In this document: positions 3,376 to 57,434 of the stretch, piece by piece
Position numbering within the stretch: the stretch's first letter is position 1
How the letters are laid out: every line of letters starts with the position of its first letter
NCBI GenBank assembly: GCA_914767715.1
Contig: OU612072.1
Location: 5,272,001 to 5,332,000, forward strand
Direction of reading: 5' to 3'
DNA: 60,000 nucleotides
From: Membranipora membranacea
Taxonomy: Eukaryota; Bryozoa; Gymnolaemata; Cheilostomatida; Membraniporidae
The notes under the pieces: model-generated
What the model was told of the DNA's origin: nothing
Databases searched by the model: none
What the model saw: the letters and a program-made list of their open reading frames with translations, nothing else
Position numbers and translations under genes: made by a program

Positions 3376-4072
3376 ATGGGGATGATTGCGGTAGTCTGCC
3401 TTGCTTTACTCAGCCTTATGGATGGATGTAGGTATTCTGTTACAAGTATTGCTGGTTTATGTGTTGCTAAAGTTTGAGTTCAGTAGCTAATGATCAGTGG
3501 TCTAAATGGACTTTTTTTTCCCTTGTGGGTACTCTACTCTCTGGGTTGAAAATCGTTTTGAGAATTTTTTGCAATTTCTAGATTAAATTATGCAGAAATG
3601 TGGATATTTTATAGTATGGTTGACATCTGGTCAAAAGAGACAACTTCACACTGTTTTTGCACAGAATCCAGTGGGAACTGTGTTCTGAAAGTCCCCCCTC
3701 TCTATTTCTTTGTGGGAACTCAGTTCTCACCAGTTCCCACTCACACAGAACACTGCTAATGATGGGTGTGGATGAAGTTTTACATAGTTATGGTAGACAA
3801 AGTAGCGCACAATCAAATAGGAATATTTTACATAACCATCGATATTTTATCTTTCTCTAATTTCTTAATTTCAGCTTGCTGGGCATCAGCAGTAGACGGT
3901 GGATGTCAGTATGGCTGGTCTCTAACACCTGATGATACTTGTGTGAAACTTTTCTGGAACAGTGAAACCTGGAGCAATGCTAAAGCATCCTGCAGGTCAC
4001 ATGGTAGTGAGCTGGTTACTCTCCCAAACAGGAGAATGATAAACTATCTGGATGGTTTCCTGCTGAATTCCA
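3376..4072 (+). CDS. Exons 1-2: signal peptide and N-terminal half of the CTLD
   Basis: Exon 1 (3376-3427) encodes a hydrophobic leader, [17 protein letters not shown], and ends in phase 1 before a gtaggt donor. Exon 2 (3875-4072, 66 codons, phase 1 to 1) encodes the first half of a C-type lectin fold: the CQYGW / DDTC cysteine pair, the W..AKASC helix and the SELVTLPN / [10 protein letters not shown] helix 2. It then stops exactly where strand beta-2 (WIGG type) should begin. That strand appears only 8.3 kb later, at 12345. The downstream donor is gtaagt. Confidence 0.8.
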
Positions 4073-7000
4073 GTAAGTGTTACTTATATATTTCTGAATT
4101 ATTGTTATGGATGCACTAGAATGTTGTATCAGTAAAATTTCTTACACATTGGTTAGTCACAGGTTCAAAAGGATGCATTACAACAATGGTAACATTGGTA
4201 GCCTTGGCAAAGAACCTCCAACTCAAAGTTGGTAAGCCAGCGCAACAACTGAAATCTCAAAACTCACAAGAACGCCCACTATTCTTAATTCAGACGAGGT
4301 TACAAGCAAGGATACACCAAACGCGTATGATTATCAAACAATTCCAAACTTTGATCTTACGAACAAGAACTATGTGCAGTTCTCTGTGAAAGCTTGCAAT
4401 GATGCACATATTACTCTTCAGCCTACAACAACTGGCCTTACAAGGTAAGACCCAATATTGTGAAGTGGGATGATAATCAATATGTTCTAACATTAATTAT
4501 TGGTTGAGTTTAGATTTACACTCTGTGTCGGCAATGTCGTAATGTCGACTGAACCATTTTAATTGCAAATAGGTATAATAAACATTAAGTATAATCATGC
4601 TCCTATGTTGTGGTATCAGGGCTATAAAGGAATACTCGGGACATGGCAGAAAGAGCCAATGGTCTAAAGTTGTACTCGGATTGTTCCATACACTGACCAT
4701 AACGATGATCTCATAAATAGGATGGAATGAATTTTACAGCTTAAAGAAATTCAGTTTTGTGGCTGCCTTCTGTGTGAAATATGTGATTATCAACTTTTTG
4801 GTTTGAACTGGTTTCTTTTCAGAAACGCATACGAGATTGTCCTTGGAGGTTGGAGCAACACACAATCTGTGATCAGGGAGAGTTTCCAGGGAATAAACCA
4901 AGCTACAAAGCGTCAGAATGATGTCATCAGCTGCTCAGAAGAACGGTTAGACATCTATCTAAAAGAAATTTGTTATCTTTTCTGTAGAATCCCTTAGGAA
5001 TGTGATCTAAGAGCATGACACCGAGCAGTGGAAGTTTGGATTGTTAATTGTTGCGATTACCAATCCCTGTTTGGGATGATGAGGTATCGCTAAAATTTAG
5101 CGCACTTGCTATTTACTGCAAGGTGATTGTTGCCGCAGGATTCATTGGTCCCAGTCTCATTGCTTGTGTATTTTTATTGATTGTTCCAGTCCTCATCATT
5201 AAGAGCTTGACCACACTGTAAGCAGATCGACTCTGCGAAACAAGTTTCTGTGCACTGTAGCGACAGTGCCACAAACTGGCCCGTTTTTACTACAAACATT
5301 TTATCTACGAAAGCTAACTTTTTTCCAAGTGCGGGTGGGGTGACTTGGCATTTCGAAAACTCAAGCACATTTGAATTAGTTCAGTCGCTACAGTGCAAAG
5401 ATAACTAGCCTGAATTGATTGGTGCACATGCATAATCTGGATATAGAAGAGACATAATATGTTCAGCGCTCAATTCAATTTTGTTTACTGTAGCCTGTTT
5501 TGGATCTCATGGTCTGATGGTCAGATAAAAGTAGGAACCGGTGAGTTCTTCAACAATGGTCCTGTATTGTTAGAATATCAAGACTCCAACCCCCAAGATA
5601 TCAAGAGTATTGCAGTTTCTACTGGGTGGGGTGCCTCTGGAAGCTGGAAAGTCTATCACCACAATGGTGAGTTTTATCATTTTTGAGCAAGGGCAATCTC
5701 ATGGATTTCCTGAAAAAAAAAACACATATCAAATTTTGAACATCAGCATAGTGCTGAAAGTTCTTAACATACCATATTGTTTAGCATAAGTGATATATTG
5801 ATGTTTTCCTGACTAACCGAGAATTACAATAAATGTCATACACCTATATTCAGACCATTTGCCGTCTCAAATATGAAAAATAACCAGAACATCCTGCGTT
5901 TAAAATTCAGAACAGGTCTCAAGCAAGAATACACCAAACGCATACACTTATCAAACAATTCCAAACCTGGATCTGACTAACAAGAACTATGTGCGGTTCT
6001 CTGTGAAAGCTTGCAATGATGCCCATATTACTCTTCAGCCTTCAATAACTGGTCTCACAAGGTAAGTAACCAATCATAAGCAGTGGAATGATAATCAATA
6101 AGTGTTCAAACATTTAGTGTTTGAGTTCATAAAACAACGATATCAAATTAAGGATGGGAGGACTTCTGATGTACAAAGCAATGAAAGTTTGTCATCCCAT
6201 GAAAACTTATTTTTATGTAATTATTGTATCCTCATTGCTGATCCTCTAAAGTTAGTAGTGTAGCTCCCTTATGTATCCTTAAACTTAATTGTAAGTTAAT
6301 CTATCAGCTATTTAGTCCTAACCACTTAACATAGCAATTTTTCTCCCTTGATAATAACCTTGGAAAAGGTTTTGCAGCTCACCCTGGAATTCCATTCTTC
6401 TGACCAATCAGAAGTTGATTAGCTCAAGGTCATTAGGTTATACAAACCTTTCAATCTGAAATTCTAAAAGTGTTATACCAACTTTGGAAATTAGAATGGA
6501 AGTGAGAACGTACAAAAAGGTAAAATAAGGTGAGGAATTTCCCCAACACAAGAGCATACTTATTAACAAATAGGCATAATTAAAAGGAGCTAAATCTGTA
6601 TGTTCACGTCTGCGATCATAATTTGCCTCAGACTTCTCCCCAGTTGGTGTGGCGCCACTGCCAACCTAATAATAATCGCCCAATGACGTATTAGTCGTCC
6701 CCTCCCCGGGGGGGGGGGAGGTTTCCGACTATCATTGAGATACCAATTGTGATAAAAAAAATACACTTTTTTTTGCTGCCTTCCAAGTGAAATATGCGAT
6801 TACTTATGTTTTATTTGAATTTTTTTAATTTCAGAAACGCTTATGAAATTGTCCTTGGAGGTTGGAGCAACACACAATCTGTGATCAGGGAGAGTTTCCA
6901 GGGAACAAACCAAGCTACAAAACGTCAGAATGGTGTCGTCAGCTGCTCAGAAGAACGGTTAGACATTTATCCAAAAAGATTTATCTATTGTTTCTGTAAT

Positions 7001-10000
7001 AACCCTTAGAGTTTTATCTGAGGACATGATTCCAGCAGTAAATGGCAGGCTTGCTCATTAGCTCTGTGTTCTAACCAATTTTTGGGATGATGAGGTGCCG
7101 CTATCATTAAGTGCACTTGCTATTTGCTGCCAGGTGATTGGTGTCGCAGGATTCATTGATCAAAGTCCCGCTGAGTGAGCATTTTGATTGATTGCTCCAG
7201 CCCTTATCAGCCTGAGTTATATTGTATGTATATCTACCTGATGCTTAGCTCCTCTTTATGATGGCCATGTAACCATCGTTTTTGCTCTGATTAGCTGTTG
7301 GCTCTCTTTCCCACCAACGGTCACTCAGATTGGAGCCATCACATTGGCTATGATGATGATGCTGTCCCTAAGATTCAATAGATAGTTGACACAACATGTG
7401 CCATAAGAGTATGATGTATTAAGTGATTGCATCTAGACTCTGTGCACCTACCCAAATTGTTGTATTTTTAGAGTGGGAGACGCAAGATGCCAGACAACCC
7501 TGTCGAGGGCTCAATTTATAAAACCGAAACATTGCAATTAAATAAATTCTATTGCATAATTGAAAAGAAAACAATCAATTTTTTCATCATTTCAATCTTT
7601 CCCTTTCTTAAGAACTAACAAAGTCTTGCAATATTAAAAATGTCGGTTATTGCTATGCGGTTTTGTAATTATCAACATGATAAGAAGCTTGTGAAATTGC
7701 GATCACAACGGCATGTGAGCTGAAATCCCGCAAATTGATTTTAGAATTTGACACATTTGCAAAGAGATTTTGTAATTTATTCATTTGTTTTGATTTCCTT
7801 ACTGTAGCCTGTTTTGGATTTCGTGGTCTGGTGGTAAGATACGAGTAGGAACAGGTGGCTCCCCCAACAGTGGTAGCGTACTGTTAGAGTACCAAGACTC
7901 CACTCCTCAAGAGATCAAGAGTGTTGCAGTTTCTACTGGTTGGGGTGCCTCTGGGAGCTGGAGTGTATATAACCATTTTGGTGAGTTTAACCTTATGGCC
8001 GATTATGTCATTCCCCATTCGCGTACCTTGAGAGTGATTTCATGGAGTTACAGAATATATCTCAAGTCAATAACAGCATATATGAGCCTGCTTGTATCGC
8101 TCGTGGAATTTCAGTTTAAAGCTGTATAGTAGAGTGTTGAAAGTTGTTAGCACGCCCTATTGTTTAGCGTATACACATATTGAGTATGACAATATGTGTA
8201 TACCCATTATTCAGACCATCTCCTCTATACTGTCTGAATTATAAAACAATAACAATAAGACCTCATGTTTATTCTTCAGATCAGTTCGTGAGCAAGAATA
8301 CACCAAACGCATACGATTATCAAACAATTCCAAACCTGGATCTAACTAACAAGAACTCTGTGCAGTTCTCGGTGAAAGCTTGCAATGATGCCCATATTAC
8401 TCTTCAGCCTACAATAACTGGACTCACAAGGTAAGTATCCAATCATAAGCAGTGGGATGATAATCAAAAATTATTTAAACATTTAGTGTGTAGTGGCAGA
8501 AGCGTAAACTTATTAGTCTTGTCTGAAGGCATGTCCTTCATCAACAAGCATCACTTTCCACAGTGTAATCAGTTGAGACTTACGAATACGATGAAATAGT
8601 AAAAACTAAACCACAGCTGCCGTTACATAATGTTTTTAGCTCAGAGTTTTATAATTAACCTGTGAGGGCGCTATATTAGCCAAGCTAGCACTTTATCAGC
8701 AGTTTAAATTTCCATAAATTGACCATAAAAATGATCTCATAATTATTAGGATGGAGGGAGTTCCATAGTACAAAAAAATACAGCGATGAGTGTTTGCCTT
8801 TGGTGCAAAAATGTTACTATTAATGCTGTGTTTGAATTTCCTTTTTTTCAGAAACGCGTATGAAATTGTCCTTGGAGGCTGGAGCAACACACAATCTGTG
8901 ATCAGGGAGAGTTTCCAGGGAACAAACCAAGCTACAAAACGTCAGAATGGTGTCATCAGCTGCTCAGAAGAACGGTTAGACATTAATTCAATGAGATAAT
9001 CTCTATGGTTTCAGTAAATAACCCTTAGAATGTGATCTGAGTGTATGGCTGCGAGCATTGAATGGCAGGCTTGCTCATTAGATTAGCAAGTCTGTTTTGG
9101 GACGATGAAGTGGCGATACCAGTCAAAATATTTTCTATTTGCTGCCAGGTGATTGGTGCCGCAAGATTCATTGGTCGTAATAAGTTTACACTTCTGCCAC
9201 TACACACTGTCCATTAAACAGGCAGAAATTAATATAAATTACCAAAATTCTTTCCCAAACTGAGTTTTCTATGGTGCAGATTATGAATCAAAAATCTTGT
9301 TAATTCTATTATAAGTGATTTTTAAGATGACCCTCTTTCCAGCTCCTTTTTCCTATGCGGCGTGGGTTAAAAGTAGCAAATTGGAGAGAGGACAACTCCA
9401 AATAGAGGCTCAAATAAGAGCTCAGAAAACTTGCTATTGGTAGAGAGGAAGATATCATTGACCTACAACCATTTCGAGGGCTAAAATCATCAACACCCAG
9501 AAATTGCAAATAAATCTTTCCTTTCCTTAATAAGTAACTAAGTCTTGCATTATTGTAGATGACAGTTATCAGCATAAAGAGAATAATATTGTGTAATTGC
9601 AATCCCAACGGCATTTGAACTGAAATCCCACAAATCGCCTTTAGAATTTGACACATATGCAAAGAAATTTACATGAGATGACATTTTGTAATTTATTCAT
9701 TTGTTTTGATTTCCTTACTGTAGCCTGTTTTGGATTTCGTGGTCTAGTGGTAAAATACGAGTAGGAACCGGTGGCTCCCCCAACAGTGGTAGCGTACTGT
9801 TAGAGTACCAAGACTCCACTCCTCAAGAGATCAAGAGTGTTGCAGTGTCTACTGGTTGGGGTGCCTCTGGGAGCTGGAGTGTTTATAACCATATTGGTGA
9901 GTTAAATCTTATTACCTACCATGTCAATCCCAATTCCCATACCTTAAGATTAATTTCATGGAGTTCCTGAATATATCAAGTCAATAACAGCATATTTGAG

Positions 10001-12562
10001 CCTGTTTGTATCGCTTTTGAATCTCAGTTTAAAGCTGTATAGTAGAGTGTTGAAAGTTGTTAGCACGCCCTATTGTTTAGCGTATACATATATGGAGTAC
10101 GACAATATGCCATACCCATTATTCAGACCATCTCCTCTATACTGTCTGAATTATAAAAAATTAACAAGAACACCTAATGTTTATTCTTCAGATCAGTTCG
10201 TGAGCAAGAATACACCAAACGCATACGATTATCAAACAATTCCAAACCTGGATCTGACTAACAAGAACTATGTGCAGTTCTCTGTGAAAGCTTGCAATGA
10301 TGCCCATATTACTCTTCAGCCTACAATAACTGGTCTCACAAGGTAAGTATCCAATCATAAGCAGTGGGATGATAATCAATAAGCGCTGAGCCATTTAGTG
10401 TGTAGTGGCAGACGCGTTAAGTTGTTATTGTTAACAGTAGCAGACAACCCTGTCACCACTTAATACGAATCAAGATGCAATTCACTATCACCAGTAAGCA
10501 ACATACTCATTAATAAAATTTCAAGGCATAATCTCTGGCTCGGTACCACAGGGCAGCCAGCAGCCCCTCAACCTCATTGCCTAAATAAACTGAATTAAAT
10601 TGAGAAGCTATGTTTTGTTTATAATCTCAAAGAAAATGCTTAATGTGTATTAAGATTGACACTAACAAAAGATAACTGCTTCAATTCTAGAAACCAATTC
10701 TTTTATATATCATTTTTTTCATCAATGATATATTTATTTTGAGAGTATGGGTATTCCTGTTTCTGAGAAAAAATGGTGGAAGAAAGTTTGCTAATTTAGT
10801 ATTTATAACATGCAAATTTAGAAGGAGTACATCATTACGCATCAAATTTCAAAATATAACTTTTGTGGTTGTCTGTTACTTTATGTGCAGCCGTATGTCT
10901 TGACTGATGGCATGTATGCCAGTATCAAGCTCAGTTTTTAAAGTGTCATTCATGGAATCTGTTGAGACCTACGAATCAAATAAAATTGCAACAACTTAAC
11001 CACAGCTGTCACTACATAGTGAGTGTGTTCAGAATTTTATGATTGAACCCTAACAGAGTTTGCTTCGTTTTAGAAACGCATATGAAATTGTCCTTGGATT
11101 CTTAACTGAAGGCATGTCCTTCATCAACAAGCATCAATTACCACAGTGTAATCAGTTGAGACTTACGAATACAATAAGATAGTAAAAACTAAACCACAGC
11201 TGCCGTTACATAACGTTTTTAGCTCAGAGTTTTATAATTAACCTGTGAGGGCGCTATATAAGCCAAACTAGCACTTTATCAGCAGTTTAGATTTCCATAA
11301 ATTGACCATAAAAATGATTTTATAATTATTAGGATGGAGGGAGTTCCATAGTACAAAAAAATACAGCGATGAGTGTTTGCCTTTGGTGCAAAAATGTTAC
11401 TATTAATGCTGTGTTTGAATTTCTTTTTTTTCAGAAACGCGTATGAAATTGTCCTTGGAGGCTGGAGCAACACACAATCTGTGATCAGGGAGAGTTTCCA
11501 GGGAACAAACAGAGCTACAAAACGTCAAAATGGTGTCGTCAGCTGCTCAGAAGAACGGTTAGCATTAATTCAATTAACTTTTTCTGCGCACGACACCAAG
11601 CAGTGAATGGGGGCTTGCTTATCAGGGCTATCAAGTAGCCAGTGCTTAAGATGATAAGACTATACTGTGACTATAAAAAGGTCATTTGCCTGTCAAATTA
11701 TTTTGTGGTTCAAAAGTCATAGATGTGAATGTACAGGATATAATTTTTTTTTCTGTAGCCTGTTTTGGATCTCTTGGTCTGGTGGTAAGATACGAGTAGA
11801 AACCGGTGCATACCCTAATAGTGGTAGTGTATTGTTAGAGTACCGAGACTCCACCCCTCAGCAGATCAAGAGTGTTGCGGTTTCTACCGGTTGGGGCGCC
11901 TCTGGGAGCTGGAAAGTCTACAACCAGGACAGTAAGGTTTATCCCATTATAGATCATCCCGATGACAATCCCAATTCCCAAACCTTTAGAGCAATTTCAA
12001 GGATTTCCAAAAGTTGCAGTCACAGAAGAGAGAAATCAGTTTTTAAAAAACTTTCCGATGTCCTCAACATCGGTTCTCAATGTTGAGAACTGATAAAAAC
12101 ACAACACTGAGGCTACTTGTTGTGTGTAACTGACCACCATGAAAATTAGATCCAAAATCATTCATTTGCCTGCATTTTTGGTCCCTCCTGTGCATACTGG
12201 AACGCCACCAACCTTGGAAGAGGGCAAACTTGAGCTGCTCCTATCAATTTAATTATCTCATCCAATCGCTTGACAGTGTTGTCCTACACTACCTAATTGA
12301 CAATAATTTACACTTCAACGCATACAACATTATTTATCTTGCAGACGCCCTCTATCAGCATTTCTGGATCGGAGGTAAGAAACAGTCAGGCATATGGAGG
12401 TGGGACGGTGTTAGTCAGGCAAACATAGCAGTGAGTGACTGGCATTCAGGCGAACCTAACGATGCTGGAGGAAATGAAGACTGTATAGAAGTGATCGGAG
12501 GAGATTGGAATGATGTGCCATGTGCAGACCCTCGCCGCTTTATATGTGAAAAGAGAGCTTAA
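3376..12562 (+). CDS. Secreted C-type lectin interrupted by four FAMeT-type modules
   Basis: Predicted secreted lectin of 751 residues in 15 coding exons: 3376-3427, 3875-4072, 4294-4444, 4823-4945, 5494-5666, 5911-6061, 6835-6957, 7808-7980, 8280-8430, 8852-8974, 9724-9896, 10192-10342, 11435-11557, 11759-11931 and 12345-12562. The sum is 2,256 bases, exactly 752 codons with the stop, and all introns are GT-AG. Order: signal peptide (about residues 1-18), N-terminal half of a C-type lectin domain (to about 83), four modules of 149 residues matching the Farnesoic acid O-methyltransferase-like domain (Pfam Methyltransf_FA; despite the name, a binding-type domain found in secreted invertebrate proteins), then the C-terminal half of the lectin domain. 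EPN and WND motifs predict calcium-dependent, mannose-type sugar binding. A role in recognition or immunity is inferred. Whether one transcript carries all exons is not proven. Confidence 0.8.
4294..5666 (+). CDS. FAMeT module 1 (three exons)
   Basis: Exons 4294-4444 (151 bp), 4823-4945 (123 bp) and 5494-5666 (173 bp) form a 447-bp, 149-residue unit in phase 1 to 1. Hallmarks of the Methyltransf_FA family are [12 protein letters not shown] in the first exon, [18 protein letters not shown] in the second, and [16 protein letters not shown] plus [11 protein letters not shown] in the third. It is the most diverged of the four copies, for example [16 protein letters not shown] where the others have SGGKIRV or close variants. 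No S-adenosylmethionine-binding motif is seen, so methyltransferase activity is not implied. Confidence 0.8.
5070..5205 (+). repeat. SINE-like copy in module 1, second intron
   Basis: A block beginning TTTGGGATGATGAGG, with TAGCGCACTTGCTATT and GTTCCAGTC, resembles the tRNA-derived SINE at 33619. It occupies the same place (between second and third exons) as the blocks in modules 2 and 3, so it was probably inserted before the modules duplicated. The box B region is degraded. Confidence 0.55.
5911..7980 (+). CDS. FAMeT module 2 (three exons)
   Basis: Exons 5911-6061, 6835-6957 and 7808-7980 have exactly the same lengths and phases (151/123/173 bp) as module 1. The [31 protein letters not shown] and [10 protein letters not shown] signatures are all present. 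One coding difference from its sisters is an R in NYVRFSVKA, where the other copies have Q. The second exon ends at a weak gttaga donor, as in all copies. Confidence 0.8.
7081..7212 (+). repeat. SINE-like copy in module 2, second intron
   Basis: This block is equivalent to the one in module 1: GGGATGATGAGGTGCCGC, then CTTGCTATTTGCTGCCAGG, a degraded box B (CAAAGTCCCGC) and the tail GATTGCTCCAGCCC. It has orthologous placement within the repeated module. Confidence 0.55.
8280..9896 (+). CDS. FAMeT module 3 (three exons)
   Basis: Exons 8280-8430, 8852-8974 and 9724-9896 repeat the 151/123/173 pattern. Third exons of modules 2 and 3 are almost identical in DNA, including the residues [20 protein letters not shown], and so are the introns on both sides. 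This points to recent duplication or gene conversion. The module lies in frame with its neighbours (phase 1 boundaries). Confidence 0.8.
9093..9180 (+). repeat. Truncated SINE-like copy in module 3, second intron
   Basis: The 5' half of the same SINE is recognisable (GGGACGATGAAGTGGCG, then CTATTTGCTGCCAGG). The 3' half is missing. In module 4 the corresponding intron (11558-11758) has lost the element apart from flanking words. Confidence 0.5.
10192..11931 (+). CDS. FAMeT module 4 (three exons)
   Basis: Exons 10192-10342, 11435-11557 and 11759-11931 again measure 151/123/173 bp. The first intron is about 670 bp longer than in module 3 because it contains a duplicated intron segment and a truncated second-exon relic at 11074. 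The second exon carries [13 protein letters not shown] instead of [13 protein letters not shown], and the third ends in KVYNQD before the phase 1 junction with the CTLD C-terminal exon. Confidence 0.8.
11074..11097 (+). pseudogene. Truncated relic of a FAMeT second exon
   Basis: After a normal tttag acceptor the first 24 bases match the start of the module's second exon (NAYEIVLG). The match then breaks off and runs directly into intron sequence that also occurs near 8520 in module 3. The remaining 99 bases of the exon and its donor are missing. It reads as a breakpoint of unequal exchange that destroyed a further module. It could not be spliced as a normal exon. Confidence 0.75.
12345..12562 (+). 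CDS. Last exon: C-terminal half of the CTLD
   Basis: The exon starts in phase 1 after a tcttgcag acceptor and ends with TAA at 12560-12562. It encodes beta-2 ([17 protein letters not shown]), the long loop with the EPN sugar and calcium motif ([13 protein letters not shown]), WND (GDWNDVPC) and the closing FICEK strand. It contains CTLD cysteines C3, C4 and C2, whose partners on the N side include KASC in exon 2. By itself this exon is only about 72 residues, too short to fold as a lectin without exon 2. Confidence 0.85.
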
Positions 12563-19262: not shown

Positions 19263-19895
19263 ATACACCTTGATATTGGCTGTTTGGCGGGCTAGGAGGT
19301 ATAGTTTGTGAAAGCCAATACATAGCGACTCCAATGACACATGGTGTGACACTTGAAAATGTGGTGGTAGATAACAGTCCAAGAAATTTGGGATCCTATC
19401 TGAAAATCTTGCAAATATTTTGACACGGTTCATCAATTAGGGAAATTTCCATCCATCCTATCGACAGTCCACTCACTCAAAATTCTTAATTTAACAAGAT
19501 GTTTGCATTCCTAAAGGTCAGCCTTCACACTAGAAGAGTGTAGTGATGTGTTGTGCTACCAGTTTTAGCCTCTCTCTCTCTCCCTCTGAAGTAGTATTGT
19601 GCTACCAGCACTACTTCCTTGCAAGCATAAGAATCTATGATCATGCAGATTTTAGCTGCCAGTGATCCGATGTAACCCAAATACATCAAGTACAATTCAT
19701 ACAACTGGTTATATCCTCACACACCTGGAATCTTCTTTGAGGAGTACAAAAAAATCAAATCAACTAATTTGTTAATGTGATTTATTGTTCGATCGACTTT
19801 ATACGGTTGCTGAGAGAGAAATGGATCACTATATGATGTACGAATTTGATATATGTAGGCCTATGTATGTAAAATTGTGTCGCTTATCTTGCAGC

Positions 19896-22141
19896 ATGGC
19901 TGAATCTCAAAGCGATTATGTCTCAGCTATTGTAAGCACCATGAACTTTGCCGCTATTAAACATAAAAATCAGAAAAGGAAAGATCCGGAAGGGACGCCC
20001 TATATAAACCATCCGATAGGTGAGTGGCCCATATTTATTTACTGTGTTGTATGATATTGTGTTAAGCTCAGATGAGTTTACTTTGGTTATAGGCAAAATA
20101 CATTGGACCATGGGTATTGTGATATGAACTTAATTATTGAAAACCATGCATGCACCTAGAAGACAATACACATCATAAGAGAAGATGTCAGACAAATAGA
20201 AAAAATTAAAGTTACCATCAGTTCTAAGAGGAAGTCTTGATGTGCATAATCATACACCATATCCATAAAAGATATTGTTTGATAGTTTGAAAGCTTCAAG
20301 TCATAGGCCAAATGGGCGGAGCAAGAATAAATGTTTGACGATATATGAATATGAATTATCCTACTATTTATATGCCTTTTACAGGTGTAGCTCATATCCT
20401 CACAGATGAAGCTGGAATAACCGATGTTCATGTAATTCAGGTAAACATATCAAACTTACTTCGATCACTAAATTCTCACCGGAGAGTTATAAGCTTAACC
20501 TAAGCAAATAATTCAGAATAGAAACTTTGGTCATTCAATCGCAATAATCTGCTAGCAGATCTGGAAAATTTCTGGGATCAATTTAAGCAATGGGATCAGT
20601 GGCTTCTTGTTGATAGAATGACACACGAATAGCGAAATCGGACATCTCCCTCAACCAGTAAGCTCAAATCAAATATGTGAAAGACAAATCCAAAATTTTC
20701 AGTCTTGACAGGGCTACATAGGGAAATGTAAACTTAAAGAAATTCCTTTCTTTTTTACATGAACCCTCTACTGTGTTTACAGACAGCCTTATTACATGAC
20801 ACAGTCGAGGACACAGAGACAACGATAGAGGAGCTGACTGTAACTTTCGGCGAAACAGTTGCAGGTGAGACAATAGTCAATTATAGTAGAATATTTACTT
20901 AGATCATATTGTGTCCAGAAACTTAAGGTCAAGCAACATATTTAAGGATATATATTTAAATATCAATGTTGAATATATATATAATAATATATATTCAACA
21001 TTGGTATTAAGGGGGTTGATATTTATTTACATATATCCGTAAATATGTTGCTTGACCTTAATATCAATGTTGAATATATATATATCAATAGAAACCATTG
21101 ACAGAAAGATTTTAACACCAGCTCAACGCGGCGGACAGGGGAAAACCTAAAAATTTCATTTGTGCACACTAAAAATGATGTTGGAGTTGTAATTAATTGT
21201 CTGGTTGGAAATGATGGTTATAATATACACATTTCATTGCTATTCAGTGAGAAAATGCGTATATTAGTTAATTGTATGTCTGCCAAGTGATGATTGTTTG
21301 CCCATGGAAGCAGTGTCTTTTGTATTTGTAAACATTACGGAAGTGCAGCCAATCTTGAAGTAACTGTTTTGTTCACGTTCACTATGATTATTTTTTGATA
21401 ATATAAATTATTGACAACTCTAGCTAATATACCTATGGATGACGCATGTTGTCTTTTCTTCAGGTCTCGTTGCTGAATTATCAGACGATAAAAATTTAGC
21501 TAAAGCCGAGAGAAAGCAGGCGCAGATAGACCATGCTCCACACGCGAGCCACAAAGCTAAACTGGTGAAACTAGCCGATAAACTATACAATCTCCGCGAC
21601 CTCAACAGATGTACCCCTCATGGTTGGGGTGAGGAAAGGTAATTATCGCGTTCAGTTAGGTTTAAGGATCAGTGCATTCAATCATTATCCCCAAAGCACC
21701 AACATAAGGTTCTCTTACATAACAATTGCCCACCCTCCCCCTTTACAGATGACCTTGAACTTATTGGTATTCTTCCCAAAAAGTGACCGAGAATAAATGA
21801 TTGATACAATTTAACGCTTAACTGTTTGTGATATCAACTCACTTCAGCTTCCCAAAGTGCAGCCATCTTTATCGTGCGAAAAAACCTCCCGGCTTCACTG
21901 CCACAACTGGGACTTGGTCAATGTTAGCAAATTACACAAAAGCAGCAGGCATTCATGTCGAGGCACTTTCAGGCATGTCGAGGCATCTTCCCAATGTTTC
22001 ATTGCTGTTTTATTATCTTTTAGGGTACAAGAGTACTTTATCTGGGCACTGAAGGTTGTGAATGGATTGAGAGGGACCAACCAGAATCTAGAAGCAATGC
22101 TAGATGATTTGTTTACAAAGAGAGGCCTTACTTGTGACTGA
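19896..22141 (+). CDS. HDDC3: MESH1 / HDDC3, HD-family (p)ppGpp and NADPH hydrolase
   Basis: Metazoan SpoT homolog 1, a small manganese-dependent hydrolase that removes the 3' pyrophosphate of (p)ppGpp and acts on NADPH in animals. Exons: 19896-20019, 20385-20440, 20783-20864, 21464-21638 and 22024-22141. They total 555 bases, encoding 184 residues; the human protein is 179. All catalytic landmarks are present: H39 in PYINHP, H65-D66 and E69-D70 in LLHDTVEDT, D126 and N130 in KLADKLYNLRD. The conserved tail VQEYF..A..VV.GLRGTN..LE is also present. I chose the ATG at 19896 because the next residues begin the conserved helix and the length fits. A pyrimidine-AG just before it could be the end of a 5' UTR intron. 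Its 3' end converges with ARID4. Confidence 0.92.
20924..21060. mobile_element. 137-bp foldback element in MESH1 intron 3
   Basis: Arms 20924-20953 and 21031-21060 match at 29 of 30 positions as reverse complements (TAAGGTCAAGCAACATATTT). A second nested inverted pair, TCAATGTTGAATATATA with its complement, lies inside, and one arm of it is repeated just downstream. It looks like a small MITE or foldback element with no coding content. Confidence 0.7.
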
Positions 22142-35700: not shown

Positions 35701-38700
35701 ATCACTAGACTAAAAAACCAGAGGCAGCAATATGTTATTGTAAATTACCCACTGCTCAATGGTTTGTTGCTCAGGATGATTATCACAGTTCAATTGTTGA
35801 GGGTGTTTATTTATCCACCACACTTGCCAGAGGGAACAAAGAAAAGGATGGAGCAAAGCAATGCATCGTGGGAAGTATTATAGTGAAAGAGGGAACACAA
35901 TTACAAATATTGAAACATAAAAACTATCATGTTCAGCATGTTTGTGATGGATGTTAGCAAGAGATTGTGACACAATGGTGCAATCAGTAAGAAAACTTGG
36001 GGAACAAGGCTGACAAAATTTTGAGCGGAATTTCAAACGCCAATATGCGGGTAACCGTCTCAAGGACAGTATCCAGAACGGAATATCTTATGTGAGATTG
36101 GAGTGTAGATAACCAAGATATTACCCTAATACAGGGGAAGCAGTTATTGCAGTCGGTATTCTTGTTGGATTGTGAAACGGAGTTAGGGTTGTTTAGGCGT
36201 TCAATTGCTTCTATAAGGAAGTAGTAGGCTAAGGAAAACAATGATAATACACAGTAACAATGTCTCTTGAATGTTTAAAAAGCCGTATTATACTCAGTAC
36301 GAATGATTTGTGATATTCATATGACCTGCCGGTGCTACTTACACTATCCGTATCACTGCTCTGAGCTGACCCACTGACAGCGCTAGAGGCTGCCGAGGAT
36401 TGTTTACTTTGTTGTGATGACGTGACGCCGCCGCTGACAGCAGCTGCTGCCTGTGAGGGAGGAGAGGTACCCAGTATCTCCTCTCTCTTCCATGAGCTGG
36501 GTAACTCCTTAGTGTTTAGGTACTTCTGAGCTTTATCCACAGCTGTCAGTAAATCAAACGGAAATCATGTGACAGCTATTATTGTTTTGCTTTATACCAG
36601 TCTCAAAGAAAAGTATTTACCAAGTTTATGCATAAAGATCAGTTCAGCAAATATTTTTGCCTGAGTGCAAATTGGACCAACAAGGAGCCTTGTACAACCA
36701 AAATGTCAAATATGGTGATATTGTTGAGCTAAACTAGCATCGTGAACAAAATAAAATTATTTTGAAAAAAGCATCTTGATAGTGGTATCTGTCTTTGACA
36801 AGCTAACAACACATATTTTATCCAAGCTTTAATGGTTTCATGAGATAGTCTTCAGATAGTCTGTAGCATTTTACTAGCATCCTCACTACATACACTATAG
36901 AGATTTCTTCTTCAGGGATTCTCCAGAGGTGATAACTCATAGGTAAATCTACTCTACTGTATTATAATATACACTTTATTGCTATTCTGTGCCCCTTTCC
37001 GGACCAATGAGAATATGCTTACATTAATTATTGAGATCAACTCATCTAATAAGCACACCCTTGCACAAGGTAAGGATGAGCAAGCTGGGGTTATGTAAGA
37101 AGAGCTCACCTCCATTAGCAGCACTGGTAGTGATTGGAATTCGAGCCTGCAACTCTCAAATTGAGAAGCTCAATATCTAACACTACACCACCCTGCCACC
37201 TGTATAATATAACTACTGACTGGACTTACCTTGTCGGGTCAGCTTATCATCAGAGTAGTTTTTGACGCACTCCTTACTGAATTCTTTCACTTGTTTCTCA
37301 GGCAGCGTAGAGCTACAGGAGAAGAAGCATATTAGTATTGAGACAATGAGTCACATAAACATTGTATGTCTATGTCTGTTTACACTCCAACAACAAGAAA
37401 CAGTCAGGTAAACAGGTGACAGAGAAGAAGAACATAGTCTGTCCTCCTTAATCAATCATTTATAGTATGTTAATACCCATAGAGAAAGGTAAACATTTTT
37501 AATTAGACATTTGGTATAGGAAATGAAATCAACTCTCGATATGCCTTTGGCAGACAAGTTGCAAAATGATTCAAGGACACACTGCTGATTTGTTGCAGCG
37601 CATATACCCTGTTCGTGAAAAGCATAATGATAATCTCTCTGATTTTCCTGCAACTGAAAACAGGTTGGCCCAGTTATTGCAGCCTGATGAATGATAATAC
37701 ATCTTATTGTAACCTATCTAGCCTATTTTTGACATGTCTGTAGAAGGTTGGACTCACATTTTACCATCCTTGAATGACTTGACCATAACTATAGCCTTAT
37801 GTTTCATGTCTATCTCATGGTTGCTGGGCTTCATCACCAAACCAGGACACCATCGCTTCCTGTCTCCTATCTCCAGAGATACAACCTGTCAGTAACGCAA
37901 ATCATTACATTAACATAAATACGACTGTATGGCAAAGAGGTTTGGCGTGGGATGAAGGAGAGTTCTCGCAAAGCCAACCATCAAGAAAACGGCTGGGATA
38001 TAGATGGGAGGCAGTTATGGAAATATAACAGCTCATTTGACCAAGATCATGATATACATATAATATATATATATAAGTATATTATCTTATTTCTCTCAAG
38101 GGAAGTGAGTCTGTCAGTAAAGCTGATCAGAATTAGAATAAAAACTACATTAAATTGTTTACTATCACTGTTAGCTTGACATTAAAACCAAGGTAAGTGT
38201 AAGGCGGGATAATAATAAAGGTTTTTCTGGCCTATATGATGAAATTCTGTCTCTCATGACACAGGGACAAACACATGTGTATTTCACATTACATATAACA
38301 TAGTTTATGTTGCACATAATATGAAGTTTATGTAATATACAGCATACATAACATACAATATTCATAATATACTGTTTACATAATATACAGTATACATAAT
38401 ATACAATATACGTAATAAACAGTATACATAATATACAGTATACATGATATACAATATACGTAATAAACAGTATACATAATATACAGTATACATAATATAC
38501 AGTATACATGATATACAATATACGTAATAAACAGTATAAATAATATACAGCATACATGATATACAATATACGTAATAAACAGTATACATAATATACAGTA
38601 TACATGATATACAATATACGTAATAAACAGTATACATAATATACAGTATACATGATATACAATATACGTAATAAACAGTATACATAATATACAGTATACG

Positions 38701-41700
38701 TAATATACAGTATACATAATATACAGTATACATAATATACAGTATACATGATATACAATATACGTAATAAACAGTATAAATAATATACAGCATACATGAT
38801 ATACAATATACGTAATAAACAGTATACATAATATACAGTATACATGATATACAATATACGTAATAAACAGTATACATAATATACAGTATACATGATATAC
38901 AGTATACATAATATACAGTATACATAATATACAGTATACATGATATACAATATACGTAATATACAGTATACATAATATACAGTATACATGATATACAATA
39001 TACGTAATAAACAGTATACATAATATACAGTATACATAATATACAGTATACATGATATACAATATACGTAATAAACAGTATAAATAATATACAGCATACA
39101 TGATATACAATATACGTAATAAACAGTATACATAATATACAGTATACGTAATATACAGTATACATAATATACAGTATACGTAATAAACAGTATAAATAAT
39201 ATACAGCATACATGATATACAATATACGTAATAAACAGTATACATAATATACAGTATACGTAATATACAGTATACATAATATACAGTATACATAATATAC
39301 AGTATACATGATATACAATATACGTAATAAACAGTATAAATAATATACAGCATACATGATATACAATATACGTAATAAACAGTATACATAATATACAGTA
39401 TACATGATATACAATATACGTAATAAACAGTATACATAATATACAGTATACATGATATACAGTATACATAATATACAGTATACATAATATACAGTATACA
39501 TGATATACAATATACGTAATATACAGTATACATAATATACAGTATACATAATATACAGTATACATAATATACAATATACGTAATAAACAGTATACATAAT
39601 ATACAGCATACATGATATAAGTGAGCTAGGTGTATATCTGTTACCTTGCCGACGAGATCTACATTAGATCTGGATCCTCGAGGTGATATCCTACGAGACG
39701 ATGTGCTCGCTGTCTCACTACCATCATCGCTATCATCTGACTCACCACCTCTACATTAACAATAATAGAATATCAAATAATATATTACTTCATTTTGTAA
39801 CACTGTAATAACAACTATATAGTTTTTAAGATTTGATTTTAAATATGTCTTGACTGGTTTGACTGTGGTGGAATGAGTCAATCACTTTTGAACTGAGATA
39901 TGGGAGCCTACTCTAGAGTCATAATACATATATATATATATATATATACATATGGGGATATTTACAATACATTTTATGTTGAAGTTTGGATTATACAAGA
40001 AATGTTTAGGGTATTTCCTCTGATGGGTATCAGAAGAACTGAAACACACAAAATGAACAAACATCAAATTACCAGATTCATTCTTGCCAATTATTCGATA
40101 ATCCCAATACCTTTTGAGGCAAGTAACTCCGCCAGGAGCTTCTCAACCAAAAACTGAATAACAGATACCTATAACATCTCATAAACCCAAAATACAAACT
40201 TACATGACCATAACGTCGTATCTGGGACTGCTATGCATGCCGGTCCTACGTCGCCTGCTGTGAGGCTTCAGTATGTTGACAGGTGTACTAAAGTGCTCCG
40301 GATTAGTAAGGGGTAACCTGTCGAGGGTGTCACTCTCCATAAAGTGCTTGTCACCCTTCAGACATATCTGTGTTCTCTTCAGCGTGGCAATATCACCGTC
40401 ATCAAATACTACAACCAGAGAAAGGCACTAATGACAACAACAAGACCAAAACACAAGATATTTAAGCCGATGAAAGCTTCCAATACAAGTGGTTGAAATC
40501 ACAAGTCACAAGAATGTGGAGATCGTTTAATGCAAAACGCTCAAACTTAAAGACTACCCAAAACCGATGCGTGTTATAATCAGGCAGTTACTTATGGGAT
40601 GCATTTTTTCCACCATCTGTAATTCATACCAAGAAAGCATTGATTTTGCTACCATACGAATCTGACATAACTTTATCATAAGTAACTGCCTGACTATAAC
40701 AGGCATGGGTAGTATTTAAGCCCATCTCTAACACAGGTTGATTTAAATATCAACTTACCCACAGTGTACACACTGCTGTCAATAATTCTAGAGATATTTC
40801 CATCTATGAGCTGTCCCGAATCAGGCTGTCTAATTTTGACAAGAGCTCCAATCTACAATCATCGATTACAAAATATTCAAACATTATAACTGCAAACTTG
40901 TAAAGACATGATCCTACAGATTTAGCTAACCATACTCAGACTCAACATTTAGATGTGTAGGTACTATTTTAATGATAGTATATACAATATAGTACCTTTT
41001 TAGTACCTTCTTATCTCAACTTTCAATGAAACTGGGCCATAAGTTGTTAACGAACCTTATAGCAGTTTACTAAATTAGACTGAGAGCTCCAGAATGATAC
41101 CAAAAACTTGATTCCTTCACAATCACTTTAAAAGAATTAGAGTAGATAATATTAATCATGGCACTTCTAAACCCTGGCAATTGTTATACAGTTCAATAGG
41201 TACTTTATACCTTGAGCTCTCCTTGCACAGAGTCGTCTGTCACACTAATCTGAGGCCCTCCATCCTTAGGTGAAACCTACCAAGCAAAAATAAATTATTA
41301 AATTTAACCACTACTGTGAACACTACGCCTATTAATACACAGTACACATCAAGTGAATATAACACTCAGTGTGATATGTTTGTTTGGTTTGAAATATAGC
41401 ATAATTTTTCATGATACTGACGCCGATCAGCAGTACTAGTCCTTGAGGGACATAGATTAGTGGAAAAAATTTTCTCAAGGTTCAATATTGAGAACTCTGT
41501 GTGTAGGTGTAGTCAACACCCATTTTGGTTCAGCCCACATGAAATCATGGTGCTGACGACAATTTGACAAAATTTTGGTGAAATGAGATGATATTTGAGT
41601 TAGTTTACCGGTCTGAATCTTGGTGATGATTAAGAGCACTGAAAAAACACATTTGGGGCCATTGTCAGCTCTTTTGATGGTTTTGGTATACTTTAAGGTC

Positions 41701-43561: not shown

Positions 43562-46500
43562 ATGGTGAGTTCATGCTCTTTTAATACATCTAGTCCACAG
43601 TCTGATATTTTATATTCCCTGAATGCATGTAAAACTCACGTCAATTTATAGTCTCGATACCGTTTGAGAAACCTTGATGTTACTTGGGTTTTTTGGTTCC
43701 GGTATCAGTACGGGTCTACGGACTGGATCCTGATGGGGCACAGTAGCATTTGAGGTCCGATGCTCTTCCTGACACCACCGTGATCCACCGGGAATTGAAC
43801 ACGGGACCTCTCAATTGAAAGACCCATACCTTACCCATTGCACCACGGCCGCTCCCTTTACCCCGAATGCATATATATATATTATCATCATCTGTGTAAA
43901 CCTCGCCATATGTCATTTGATAGTTCCAACCGCCATTTTAACACTAACTTAATTGTTTTTGAGGGAATATTGTTGATGATTGGTCTGCTTTCGATCCATT
44001 AGGCTCAAAATGTGCAGATCTGTGAGATTGATCCAGAATTGAAAGAGAAACTGAAGGAGTTCAGATTCAGAAAAGCTCAGAATAATGCTGCAATTATTAG
44101 TAAGTAGTAACTCCATTAAATATTTTTCTTTTACATTCAGTTTCCGGTGAGACTGATGTTAGCTTAATTTGAAACTTGAGTTATTTTACAGCTTTCCTTA
44201 GTATTGAGATAGTGTTATTAACATTATTACATAATGTTTGCACATTTCTAGCTTCTTTCCCACACCTACTGGCTGATTTGATTGACAACACTGGATTTTA
44301 TAAAATTTCAACTAACTATTATGTCACTCTCCCTGGTCCACAAAAACTGTGAATCTGATTCTAAAGGCTTTTTCAATGGCATGTCTGTGTATAATTAGCT
44401 AAATGGGAAAAATACATCAACTCTGGGATCAGTTAGACTTTACGTTCCCTCATAGTTTTAATTTTTATTATGCATCATAAGTGATCATGCTTGTTTGATT
44501 GCCATCAGTTCTTCGCATGCTTCTGTTACGGTAACTACATTAGCATGTTTCTCTGTGAATTCTTGAAAACTGTGTTATTTCATGTTTTCAAACTTGCCAT
44601 AGCTTTTGTCTCTATATATTCCCAAAAAGAAAATCAGAACCAGATATCTTGTCTTTCTCTGTTACAGTGAAGATAAACCCGAAAACACTTACAGTTTCAG
44701 TAGATGAAGAATTGGAGGTAAGCAACGCATTCATTTATTTATTACATTTATGCTATATATCGGCTCTATCTAACCATTCCCTCTATTCTTTCCTGAAAAT
44801 GTCAATAAAATTGTAAATATGTAAAGCTAGCTGTTGGTAAAATCATGTCTTTGGTGTGGTCATAGTGTAAGTTTGAAGATAAGTGGTTAAACTAAAAAAA
44901 AGGCACAAAAAACATTACTAGACATATCAAGGGTCAAATAACAAAACCCCTGTTGCAACACAAAAGGCCACTTCTGTGATTTGTTGTAAATACTATCACA
45001 GGTAATGATCTTTTCAAAGATCAATTAAACCGAATGAACATCGCTGACGAGTCATCCTGTCCTAAACGGGGTGCGATATCGGATTCAAATATTCACATTG
45101 TTTTTGACTGCCCAAATAACTCAAAAATTAGAATGAATACACTCAAAATATCTACATATCAAAAAATTAAAACACAACTTTGCATTAAGGTGATGGATCT
45201 GGCTGACTTTATAAAATTGTCTGACAGATTCACTACCAATATATGTTAAATCGAATTTGTCCGGGGCCTCTGAATACGATCGGTGCCATATATTGCCTGT
45301 ATTCTGTCTGATATTTTCCATCGTCTATCTGAGTCCCCCTCATAAGACAAGACAAGGCTGTATCTCAACATTCCCTCTATACATTCCTGAAAATGTCAAT
45401 TAACTTGAAAATATGTGTAGCTAGCTGTTATGCAGATCATGTTTCTGGTGTGGCCATAGTTTAAGTCTACATGGCCACCAACCCTTGCTGCACCAGGAGT
45501 AATGCTCAGGTTTTTTAACTCAATTAGTTTTCCTTTCACTCTTTTTTCCCTTTTATTCTGTCCTTGATACATTTACTTTATCAGGATTGTGATTTGGAGG
45601 AAGTCAGAGAGAATCTCTCTGAACACCAGCCTCGATACTTAGTATACAGCTTCAAACAGGATCACGGGGACGGTAGAATATCATATCCAATGTGCTTTGT
45701 CTTTGTGAGCCCTGAAGGTGAGTTAACTGCCTATATAAAGAAAAATGACTATATAGACTTAACCCTCTTCTTCCATGACACTGCTGCAAGTCTTGTAGCG
45801 AAGTCGGTGACTATACGTTTTAACCATACAGTTGTTTTGGGTAGTTGTCCTTCCATTGATATTATGAAGATAACTCTTAATTAGTGTCAGCATGGATGCC
45901 AAATAGCAAACAGTAGGTAATGAGTTTACATATGTGTTAAACCTTCTTTAAATCTTCCTTTCTTTACTAGAGTATTAGCCTCCCTTTCTTTGAAGCAATA
46001 TTGAAAGAAATAGTGATTTACTTGTATTTTGTCAGGTTCTAAGGCTGAGTTGCATATGATGTACGCTGGCAGTAAAACATTTCTGGTGTCAGAAACTGGA
46101 ATGACTAAGGTATGTTAACTCTTGAATTAAGCGACCAGGTTAATCAATGTTTCTAGATAGGATACGCGAGTAACTTTATGAATCGACAGTCTCAAAAGTA
46201 GGGACAGTATGGGACATCTAAACTCAAATGGAGTCTTGAACCCCATAACTTTCACCTTATTGGCTAATAGTTTCCAGAAACTGATTATCAAAAAAAGGAT
46301 GAAATCAAGGGATTTACTAGTTAAATATAATGACATTGGCACTCAGTTCGTTGCTTTCATTTCATGATTTGGCAATCAGTTTCTTAAAATTATTAGCCCA
46401 TTAGGTGACAATTCTGTGGTTTAAGCCCGTATAATTTAACATATAGCTTTGTAGAATTCACTTCGAACACCTCATCATAACTGGCAGCAGTAGTTTTCTT

Positions 46501-51702: not shown

Positions 51703-54700
51703 ATGAGCCAACAAGACTTTGCAATCATTAGAATGTTGTCTGGATACTTGGTAAGTACATCGGAAAAATACTATCACAAATATAACCTATGGTTTTTTAT
51801 ACATTTATTTATTTATTTCTTCTTCCAAATTCGCCCAAACATTAAAAAATAAAAATTTGAGGTGAGACATAGATGGCCCAGCTAGCGAAAAAAACAGAAA
51901 ACATAGAAAATTATCATGTCTTCATTAATTGTTATAACTGTTAAAAGAACTCTTCATTACTGTTAGCTATTGTCTTTATTATTTAATTTATTATCTTTTT
52001 GTGACCCAAATAACTCAATAAATTATCGTTAAACAATTATGGCACCCTACCCCTAGCCTCTCACAGCCCCCATTCTTGCAAAAAGAAGTAACTGAAATGG
52101 TGCCTTTTAGATAGCCTAACAAAATCACCCAACATTACCCCCACCTTCCAAAACCACTTTGTAATTTTGTAATGTTGATCAAATTGTTTGTCAAGTTGAA
52201 CTTATATTAAACAATTAAAACCAATTAAATATCAATTTAAATAAATTAAATAATTTTTAATCAAAAAAGAGAATCTTTCTCTCTGTGTCCATAGAATACT
52301 TTATCTCTTCCATTTTTTGTATGGGCTGTTTTAGCTCCACATTTTTTTTCAAACAAAATAGTTTCCTACTCTCAATCAGTGACATGAAGACTGTATATAA
52401 CGGAGCACTCAGTCTGTTGTTATTTTTGACAATGCTTTCTGAGATTCTTATATGCGGTGGTGATTTATGTTTCAGTTTGTGTTTGTACTACTCAGTGGCT
52501 TACAGAGTGTACATGCCGACGGGTCTCACATCAGTAACGTTACCTCAAAATACAAGTGAGTATATACACTCTTGTTATCAGCCTGATGTGAAAGGGTCCT
52601 ATATCAGAAAACAGAAAATATTACACATTCTCTTAGCCATTGGTCAGTCGACAATTCAACAAACAAGTTTGTTACGTTGCTGACCTTGATGACAGCTAGA
52701 ATCGGCGTCACAGTGATCATATGATATACTATTGCATGTGAATATATGATTTGTAAAGAAGCTTGAGAACCAACAGAATGAAATAGGCAGACCCCAACGT
52801 TTGTTTCTTAAAATAGGGGGGAGGGGGTACACATGAGGTACTAAGACTAAATTTACTCTAACAATAAGGGATACACATACTGATAAAAAATTTATCTTGA
52901 TGTCAGTGTGAGTTGAAAATTATGGTGCATCACACTTTTTGTGGCCATTGGTAATAGGACCCATGAAAATTTTATGACGTATGTTTTCTTGATTAAAAAA
53001 ATAAGAGACTCATGAGAGGCCTAAAAATCTAAAATATTGCACTGCATCTGACTTAATTCACACATGTATGGTATGATTCAAAATATGACAAACAAAATCA
53101 TTTTATACGAGCAAATAACCTGTTTAAATTAGTTACGGGTCTTTAGCTTAAAAGTAGTGGATTTTGTGTCATCGTTTATCTGCAATGAAAAAGCAAAAAA
53201 ATACCAGGTATCTATATTATTCTGTATTATACCTATCACCATTAAAAACAGCACACACCTACTATCTGATACCTTTACAAGTACATATTTCTTTGTTTGC
53301 TTAATTTTAAAATCCCTCTCTAGAGATGTTTACATAAAACAAAAAAAATTACTGGGTGCATAAAATTGCTTAAAAGAAATCCCCATTGAATAAGGTAAAA
53401 TCAAAAAGAAAATAAATAAATGAATATATAAAAATCAATACTAGCTGACACGTGGTAAAAGTTAGGTCAATTTTATAAATGTAAAGAATATAGCATTTTT
53501 TTATTGTAGGCATATTCCTGAACATGCAATGGTATCAACGTTTATTGAGACTGATGGGCAAGTGTTTCATATGGAACCAGATCTCTACATCCCGGGCAAT
53601 GTTATCTACACCGATCACTGTGCTCTCAAAACAACAGACGGCATCACATCATCAATTGTATCCGGCTATGCAACGTGCTACAACCATAAATGGGCGGGGG
53701 ACATAACGCGCTTTTGGCATCTCACAGGGTTCCGTCAAATATCCCCCTCAAAAGTGGTTGTTGTCGACTATCTCAAACACTGCTTGAAATTAATTGATCG
53801 TGTGACATTGCGAGTTTCTCGATATGCGGGAGTTTGTGATTCTGGTGGATACGCGGAGGGTACATCAGATGCTCAGTTTGACCTTCCGTACAGCGTAGTA
53901 AACGACATCAAAAACCCTGATATGCTGCTTGTAACTGATACAAATAATGGGGCTGTTCGTCATGTTACCATCTTAACCAGCGCTCTTGCCTCTGTTACTA
54001 ATTTTGTCATCAATCTCGAAAAACCTCAGGGAATAACCCAGCACCCAGTCACAGGGAATATGTTTGTAACCGATGAAAACGGAAGTAAAATATGGAAAAT
54101 ATTATACTCAAATCAAACAGCATATTATTTCTCGGGGGGAACAACTGGATATCGAGATTGTGAAATCTTAGATAGTTATTTCAATCGTGCCCGCGAGTTA
54201 ATCTTCATAAGCGACAATGACCTGCTGGTGGCGGATAGTTTAAATCATAGGCTCAGAGTTTTACATTCGCAAAACTCCCATGTTTCCTCGCTGTGTACGG
54301 GAAATGACGGCCACGTCGATGGTGGCAAGGCCACCTGCACACTCTTCTACCCCCGAGCCCTGATGGTTCTCAATGATACTCTCTATGTTGGTGAAATACG
54401 GCGTATCCGAATGGTTCGTGGTAAGTTGAGTGTCCTGCATTATCCCTTGCTGTTATTTTGATCTTGCACGTTGCAAGTTGATGCGCAACATACACAATTC
54501 AACAGTGTCAATGAATGAGAATTTTCTAAAATTCTGTTAGATGGCATAAAAGATTGGGCTGGGGCTGCCTTTTATGACAGCAACAGTGATGGCATCTAAA
54601 AGTTTACTGTTTTAGTTGTCCTGTCTCGTCACGTGTGAGCATTACTCCTTTAAAAAGAAAATACTTATTTTCTTGCAGCTTTATTTCAATGGAGAACTGT

Positions 54701-56546: not shown

Positions 56547-57434
56547 CTGCTTGAGGACCAACTTTATTTAATTTGAATTTCAACCAACCGCATCACAGTT
56601 TTGTTAGTTCTTGCAAATAAGATGTTGTAACTGACGACCTGGCAAAGGACAATCGTCATTATTAGTCTAAAGAGAGCATTGATTTGCATCCTTAGGACAC
56701 ATATCTGTTGTGTGTTATCTTTTGAAATGAAAATGAGTTTCAATTGCTTTATCAGCATTGGTTAATCTGAACCTAATATTTCAACATTTTATTTTTATGG
56801 TAACTATAAACCCGAGGTATGATAGGAGGACGTTGTAAGCTTTGCGAGACTGGAGTACGATTTTATTAAGTTTATATATTATATTATGTACATGAAGTAA
56901 TCGTTATTGAGTCGAAATGCATTTGAGTCTAAATGAAATCAGTGCTAACTGAATGTTTTTGAATCTTTATCCAATTTGCAATAATGTTTTCTTAAGTCCA
57001 ATTTTAAACCTTTATCAAATTTTTTTTTCAAGCACGCTTCATTTTTTTTAAGAATTTGTTCCACGTCACGTTTTATCCATTTTGCTTTGAATAAATGGTT
57101 GTGTTTCATAATGCCACCCGATGTCTTATGCATTCAGGAAAAAACTACTACAACATATTTCTGCGCTTTTATTTCAACTGACATTTCTAGGTTATTATCA
57201 AAAAATAAGTTGTCATTACATTTTGCTGCCGCTGTCAACTTTGCATCAATTCAGAAGCGGATGATAGGGCACTGTGATCTCAGCTCAGCTCTTGTCTGAG
57301 GATTTGCCCAAGTTTGGAGGGGTGCTGTTTGTCGTAATAATATAATGACAAAATAATATAACTGGAACAGAATTTGTAATGAGCCATGTAGGCTGTGTCA
57401 TTCATGATGATCGCCTATAAAATTAGAATGCCAC
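56547..57434. other. Intergenic DNA before the retroelement
   Basis: AT-rich, with no recognised product. The 5' boundary, leader and any long terminal repeat of the downstream retroelement were not found here by eye. Confidence 0.45.

Follow-up and report, generated by a model that had tools for sequence, protein, structure and literature searches.

The stretch of DNA considered here is a 60,000-nt window on chromosome 8 of the bryozoan Membranipora membranacea (C8:5272001-5332000), whose genome was searched as 339 Mb in 18 contigs. Near the beginning of this window lies a plus-strand gene in which a C-type lectin domain (CTLD) is split: a signal peptide and the first CTLD half are followed by four modules of the Methyltransf_FA (FAMeT) family, and then by the second CTLD half. 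Rebuilding of the gene from the DNA yielded 15 exons between positions 3376 and 12562, with GT..AG borders on every intron and a stop-free frame of 751 aa, in agreement with the exon reading given in a preliminary description of this DNA. The insert between the two CTLD halves comprises residues 84-679 (596 residues). Each module is encoded by three exons of 151, 123, and 173 bases, and these sizes are repeated four times over, with phases running 1-2, 2-2, and 2-1. Exon 1 ends in phase 1, exon 2 begins and ends in phase 1, and the last exon is entered in phase 1. Because the modules are in phase 1 at both ends (1-2-2-1), they are phase-symmetric, and any number of them, including none, fits in frame. 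The hydropathy maximum of the chain lies at its N-terminus, and neither a later membrane-like stretch nor an N-glycosylation sequon was found in it; the product is presumably secreted and soluble.

The nesting itself, which the preliminary description had proposed, is well illustrated by profile matches. In the full chain, the Pfam family Lectin_C (PF00059) matches in two stretches that flank the insert and together score 56 bits; when the halves are joined directly (155 aa), the match becomes a single stretch of 74.3 bits covering profile positions 2-107 of 107. Methyltransf_FA (PF12248) matches the full chain in four stretches with a summed score of 413.2 bits. In the alignment to L-selectin, the join falls after alpha-2 has ended and before the WIG strand, with the beta and alpha elements named in the usual way. 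This agrees with the place proposed at the outset, and it lies apart from the long loop, which is the usual variable place in C-type lectins. Ordinary C-type lectins, such as the selectins, the mannose receptor, and DC-SIGN, match the joined halves by sequence but are not known to have an inserted domain. All six long-form CTLD cysteines are present (C28, C40, C57, C726, C739, and C747), as noted before, but the suggestion that several conserved disulfides bridge the insert goes too far: assuming the standard CTLD pairing, C28-C40 and C726-C739 would be local and only C57-C747 would span it. Two further cysteines occur in each module (118 and 171 in module 1), at positions that are invariant across 11 aligned nested proteins, as far as each row covers them. 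The window chain also possesses the EPN, E, and WND residues, presumably of a Ca2+-dependent, mannose-type sugar site. Finally, a search of the window for additional copies of the two CTLD halves gave nothing significant, so there are no hidden exons that complete two separate CTLDs, an outcome that would have spoken against a single interrupted domain. Matches to Vps36 and UvrA_DNA-bind (above the cut-offs) and to PH_TFIIH, T4_Y03C, and LEF-9 (below them) were set aside; no stretch passes singly, and they are ascribed to the repeated modules.

Table 1. Features of the nested gene, other features of the window, and clusters of nested loci on chromosome 8 (L numbers denote genomic loci and P numbers database proteins; positions are those of the window unless given in Mb)
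Feature	Position	Strand	Remarks
Exon 1	3376..3427	+	Contains the start codon and encodes the signal peptide (hydropathy peak at residue 1); leaves in phase 1
Exon 2	3875..4072	+	CTLD first half (beta-1, alpha-1, alpha-2), phase 1 to 1; secondary structure from the P0079 model
Array region	4073..12344	+	Equivalent of one phase-1 alpha-2/beta-2 intron in module-free CTLD genes; holds the module array
FAMeT module 1	4294..5666	+	Exons 4294-4444, 4823-4945, 5494-5666
FAMeT module 2	5911..7980	+	Exons 5911-6061, 6835-6957, 7808-7980
FAMeT module 3	8280..9896	+	Exons 8280-8430, 8852-8974, 9724-9896; no counterpart in three-module paralogue L010
FAMeT module 4	10192..11931	+	Exons 10192-10342, 11435-11557, 11759-11931
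Relic exon b	11074..11098	+	First 25 bases of an extra exon b, in the array's last intron, sequence diverging afterwards; similar relic in L010
Exon 15	12345..12562	+	CTLD second half, beta-2 (WIGG, EPN, WND) to stop
MESH1/HDDC3-like exon	19776-20054	+	Presumed, by eye
GMF-like exon	45528-45884	+	Presumed, by eye
NHL-repeat-like frame	53466-54461	+	Presumed, by eye
Gypsy-type retrotransposon-like frames	57411-59911	+	Presumed from resemblance, by eye
5.2 Mb cluster	5.2 Mb		L009 (-, 1 module), L010 (+, 3), L042 (-, 1), L011 (-, 1), window (+, 4)
8.9 Mb cluster	8.9 Mb		L012, L013, L014 with L038, L015; 1 module each
1.5 Mb cluster	1.5 Mb		L044, L045; 1 module each

The genome's 11 best matches to the CTLD second half are all on chromosome 8, and a module lies ahead of each one. 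Nine of these nested loci have one module, L010 has three and a stop, and the window has four. Same-phase GT/AG sites occur in all 11 at the expected exon ends or <=15 bases off, and the CTLD-FAMeT-CTLD order is present in the 10 complete loci; for L015, the CTLD first half was not found in ~11.5 kb upstream (L015 plus L039). The module and second-half residues of L014 and L015 (C8:8.93 and 8.94 Mb) are identical (225 aa). Within the 5.2 Mb cluster, the L009/L010 pair and the L011/window pair resemble each other at 97.7% over 6.9 kb and 98.3% over 4.5 kb. The L010 modules pair with window modules 1, 2, and 4 (98.6, 99.3, and 98.2% of bases equal, respectively), so that one whole module has been gained or lost between the two loci. 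The relic exon b, which has a similar counterpart in L010, marks an older exchange. As a separate observation, CTLD second halves are common in the genome: 337 candidates gave 150 scored matches, which suggests that M. membranacea has a large number of CTLD genes.

The preliminary description had advised a search of other genomes for the same order; it was sought in protein databases, and one-module relatives were found. Three protein searches produced 164 distinct proteins (P0001-P0164), and 14 of them contain both Pfam families. Eight are nested proteins that are complete and have a single module (P0079, P0084, P0087, P0101, and P0138-P0141), and three more fit the nested pattern but lack all or part of the first half (P0097, P0142, and P0143). 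The remaining three are not of the nested type: P0104 and P0029 carry the families side by side, the latter being a secreted protein of Branchiostoma floridae (LOC118420950) with an uninterrupted CTLD, and the CTLD of P0051 is interrupted by another stretch. All named nested proteins are bivalve, and P0084, P0087, and P0141 were put with bivalves by likeness. For example, LOC123547911 of Mercenaria mercenaria, LOC133202836 of Saccostrea echinata, LOC134250513 of S. cucullata, and LOC111136752 of Crassostrea virginica have a FAMeT module at the same CTLD place, but they differ from the window protein in having one module and incomplete sugar-site residues, and in host CTLDs that the tree described below separates from those of the bryozoan. 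The nested arrangement is thus, as far as sequence comparison can tell, not confined to the window gene, and these proteins are not labelled as nested in the databases. A lectin fold with an array at this place had been put forward as something not previously known. No description of a CTLD interrupted by FAMeT was found in the open-licence literature (most subscription journals were outside this scope, and unpublished status is not implied), but the window gene is not one of a kind, given the 11 loci and the bivalve relatives.

One of these relatives, P0079, has 89% identity over 49% of a two-module query. It is a whole, 304-residue, one-module chain on a contig of 1180 bases; it reads uninterrupted through both CTLD/module junctions and shares 283 of 287 residues with L009, a neighbour of the window that has one module. 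In L009, the exons running from the CTLD first half up to the stop codon span 2337 bases, and a contig of 1180 bases is too short for such introns, so P0079 most likely derives from a spliced transcript. Ten relatives were scanned with Lectin_C intact and seven with the insert removed (P0139 was left out, and P0097 and P0143 are truncated), and upon removal the split match became one complete match of higher score in all seven: from 62.0 to 73.3 bits in P0079, 61.2 to 74.8 in P0084, 46.3 to 59.1 in P0087, 49.1 to 62.2 in P0101, 66.9 to 71.5 in P0138, 52.8 to 61.1 in P0140 (where the insert-removed query starts 32 residues late), and 43.1 to 58.3 in P0141. The EPN, E, and WND residues are retained in P0079, L009, L011, and L013, and L012 and L014 have QPN. 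At this site, bivalve-like relatives read QPD, QPN, KPF, EPR, GPS, or something else, or keep EPN but not WND, and they may therefore bind sugars differently. A different kind of interruption was observed in P0051 (residues ~590-850), where an F5/8 type C-like stretch (26.8 bits, cut-off 28.2) occupies the corresponding CTLD place; its Lectin_C match goes from 34.1 to 48.1 bits when the stretch is removed.

The empty form of the site is also present in this genome. Nine CTLD loci that rank next after the 11 nested ones (L029-L037) were compared. In eight of them, an exon for the first half precedes the second half, and GT/AG sites compatible with an intron in phase 1 are present at the alpha-2/beta-2 place. 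L029, L030, and L032 were examined in detail in longer regions (L046, L047, and L048), and the sites of the other five are candidates only. Translated searches at E up to 0.01 found no FAMeT in these next-best loci, and no first half was found for L037 within its 3 kb. At L016:1693-4737 (C1:2626693-2629737), CTLD exons and a FAMeT module adjoin without nesting, and this module could be a source or a derivative of the bryozoan nested modules.

AlphaFold2 models were made for the one-module relatives P0079 (predicted local distance difference test score, pLDDT, 71.6; predicted template modelling score, pTM, 0.67) and P0138 (pLDDT 67.6, pTM 0.55), not for the four-module chain. Ordinary CTLDs were kept out of the structure alignment, since their first halves were misplaced by MAFFT. 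Both models contain beta-1, alpha-1, and alpha-2, followed by a mostly confident all-beta module and then the later CTLD strands; in P0079, a helix occupies residues 70-81 and module strands begin at 85. Galectins and concanavalin-like lectins or glucanases dominate among the 50 PDB matches listed per model. Foldseek gave a probability of 1.00 for a galectin-like sandwich, with target-normalised TM scores up to 0.63 and 0.61 for the two models, and the galectin matches included LEC-6 (E 4.1e-5) and galectin-9 (target TM 0.63). Viral spike domains were also among the matches listed, as were fructofuranosidases and a phage baseplate protein (one model versus the other). Although galectins and concanavalin-like lectins share the module's predicted fold, no galectin family was among the window chain's Pfam matches at E up to 0.1, and the module is therefore regarded as galectin-like in fold only and not classed as a galectin. 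A galectin/concanavalin-like fold class is supported by the models, and the arrangement would resemble a lectin-like fold sitting inside a lectin fold. That FAMeT is an actual methyltransferase received no support, as no methyltransferase appeared in sequence matches to solved structures above E 1 or among the 50 fold matches listed per model. Given the galectin-like predicted fold, the methyltransferase name may mislead the annotation of secreted invertebrate proteins. According to earlier reports, mussel tissue under repair upregulates genes with FAMeT domains, the shell matrix of abalone contains a Methyltransf_FA protein (PMC8194122, PMC6003135), and the FAMeT domain forms part of CPAMD8 (PMC9363628).

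Taken as a whole, the product of the locus is probably a secreted C-type lectin with four FAMeT modules set into the alpha-2/beta-2 loop of its fold. Judging from the intron phases at 11 loci, the three-exon module would have entered the alpha-2/beta-2 intron by phase-1 exon shuffling, and the pair of three- and four-module loci suggests that module number was then altered, by gain or loss, through unequal exchange. The CTLD halves would fold together around the array, with one disulfide (C57-C747) closing over it, and a sandwich-type module with neighbouring ends would permit them to meet. The CTLD may bind sugars with Ca2+ through its EPN/WND site, to which the modules could add contacts, and module number might set the reach or valency of a soluble recognition molecule of immune, mucus, or matrix function. 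The EPN...E...WND residues and the galectin-like predicted fold make a multivalent recognition molecule plausible, and a soluble multivalent recognition or matrix lectin is our best guess. Several observations weigh against this explanation. The four-module form was seen in DNA and not as a transcript, and the contig behind P0079 carries no transcript label. In both models, the CTLD second half mostly has pLDDT <50, and CTLD entries match at a probability of 0.75-0.90 but with a root-mean-square deviation >20 A. Finally, the three-module sister L010:495-7356 (C8:5223495-5230356) has one in-frame stop, in module 1.

Whether the module entered the host domain once or repeatedly was addressed with two trees. 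The host CTLD tree had 29 rows (L010, for its stop, and L015, for its missing first half, were left out); it was built without module-free bivalve CTLDs, and similarity to the window decided which module-free bryozoan CTLDs entered it. Nested and module-free bryozoan CTLDs group together in it (97/97), apart from the nested bivalve-like ones (97/97), and a single nested clade was rejected (approximately unbiased test, p-AU 0.010). The module tree had 75 rows, among them L016 and those 50 non-nested first domains that scored best; L010 was left out, its modules remaining in the profile that chose the rows. P0144 and P0147 entered as non-nested but were counted as nested in the tests, since they look like pieces of bivalve nested proteins. 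Here, the L016 module falls together with the nested modules of the bryozoan (Shimodaira-Hasegawa-like approximate likelihood ratio test, SH-aLRT, 95), and a single nested clade was not rejected (p-AU 0.198); with L016 inside, p-AU was 0.585 and the likelihood slightly higher. Separate insertions in bryozoans and bivalves are thus favoured by the host tree, with the module tree neutral. It is conceivable, at a little under an even chance, that the alpha-2/beta-2 phase-1 intron is a recurrent docking site into which FAMeT was shuffled separately in bryozoans and bivalves, and perhaps other domains elsewhere (the F5/8 type C-like stretch of P0051), with unequal exchange then setting the module number (1, 3, or 4) and giving nested lectin-in-lectin proteins of adjustable valency. 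One ancient insertion that predated the bryozoan/mollusc split, with later loss of the module from module-free CTLDs, is a tentative but serious alternative; the place and the module family are identical in both groups and the module tree is compatible with it, but the host tree places the bryozoan nested CTLDs with the module-free rows and rejects a nested-only clade.

Other explanations concern the product rather than its origin. The modules could be optional cassettes, with a plain 155-aa CTLD as the main product and module-containing forms as minor splice variants. The phases would permit this, and Lectin_C matches the plain CTLD completely, but the idea appears unlikely, since P0079 includes its module, all 11 loci have retained theirs, and the modules evolve under constraint. 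By naive counts on close paralogues, made without a formal test, dN/dS (the ratio of nonsynonymous to synonymous change) is 0.17-0.31 among the window's four modules, and between the window and L042, L011, and L009 it is 0.13-0.21 in the CTLD first half, 0.06-0.24 in the second half, and 0.18-0.21 in module 4. Changes between L010 and the window are too few for a judgement (the last module gives 0.47), and values of 0.38-0.55 are reached by some pairs inside the other clusters.

It is slightly less probable still that the four-module array is a non-productive or miscounted expansion, and that the one-module neighbours are the working proteins. The duplication is recent (similarity to the neighbouring pair is ~98% across several kilobases), L010 contains a stop, and a relic exon lies inside the array. 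On the other hand, the window's frame is open over 15 exons with intact splice sites, and dN/dS among its modules is low, though much of this signal may predate the array's present form. Moreover, the assembly's published description reports that it was made from long reads with haplotypic duplicates removed (PMC10290214), which speaks against a miscount. Lastly, a misreading of two neighbouring genes or two half CTLDs as one is scarcely credible; nothing was found in its favour, and the window's lack of other CTLD halves and the shared order in 10 complete genome loci, P0079, and seven other complete relatives all contradict it.

For the secreted, nested C-type lectin that we prefer, one genome appears to keep the stages of nesting, with the host intron empty or containing one, three, or four modules. 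With such a series, the idea that exon shuffling can give rise to a discontinuous domain becomes open to direct test. Moreover, if the fold holds, the alpha-2/beta-2 loop of C-type lectins would tolerate very large inserts, a property that would be useful for engineering.

Elsewhere in the window, on the minus strand at 38171-39755, a long repetitive stretch is open in three frames, with repeats in its protein letters, and resembles a short tandem repeat.

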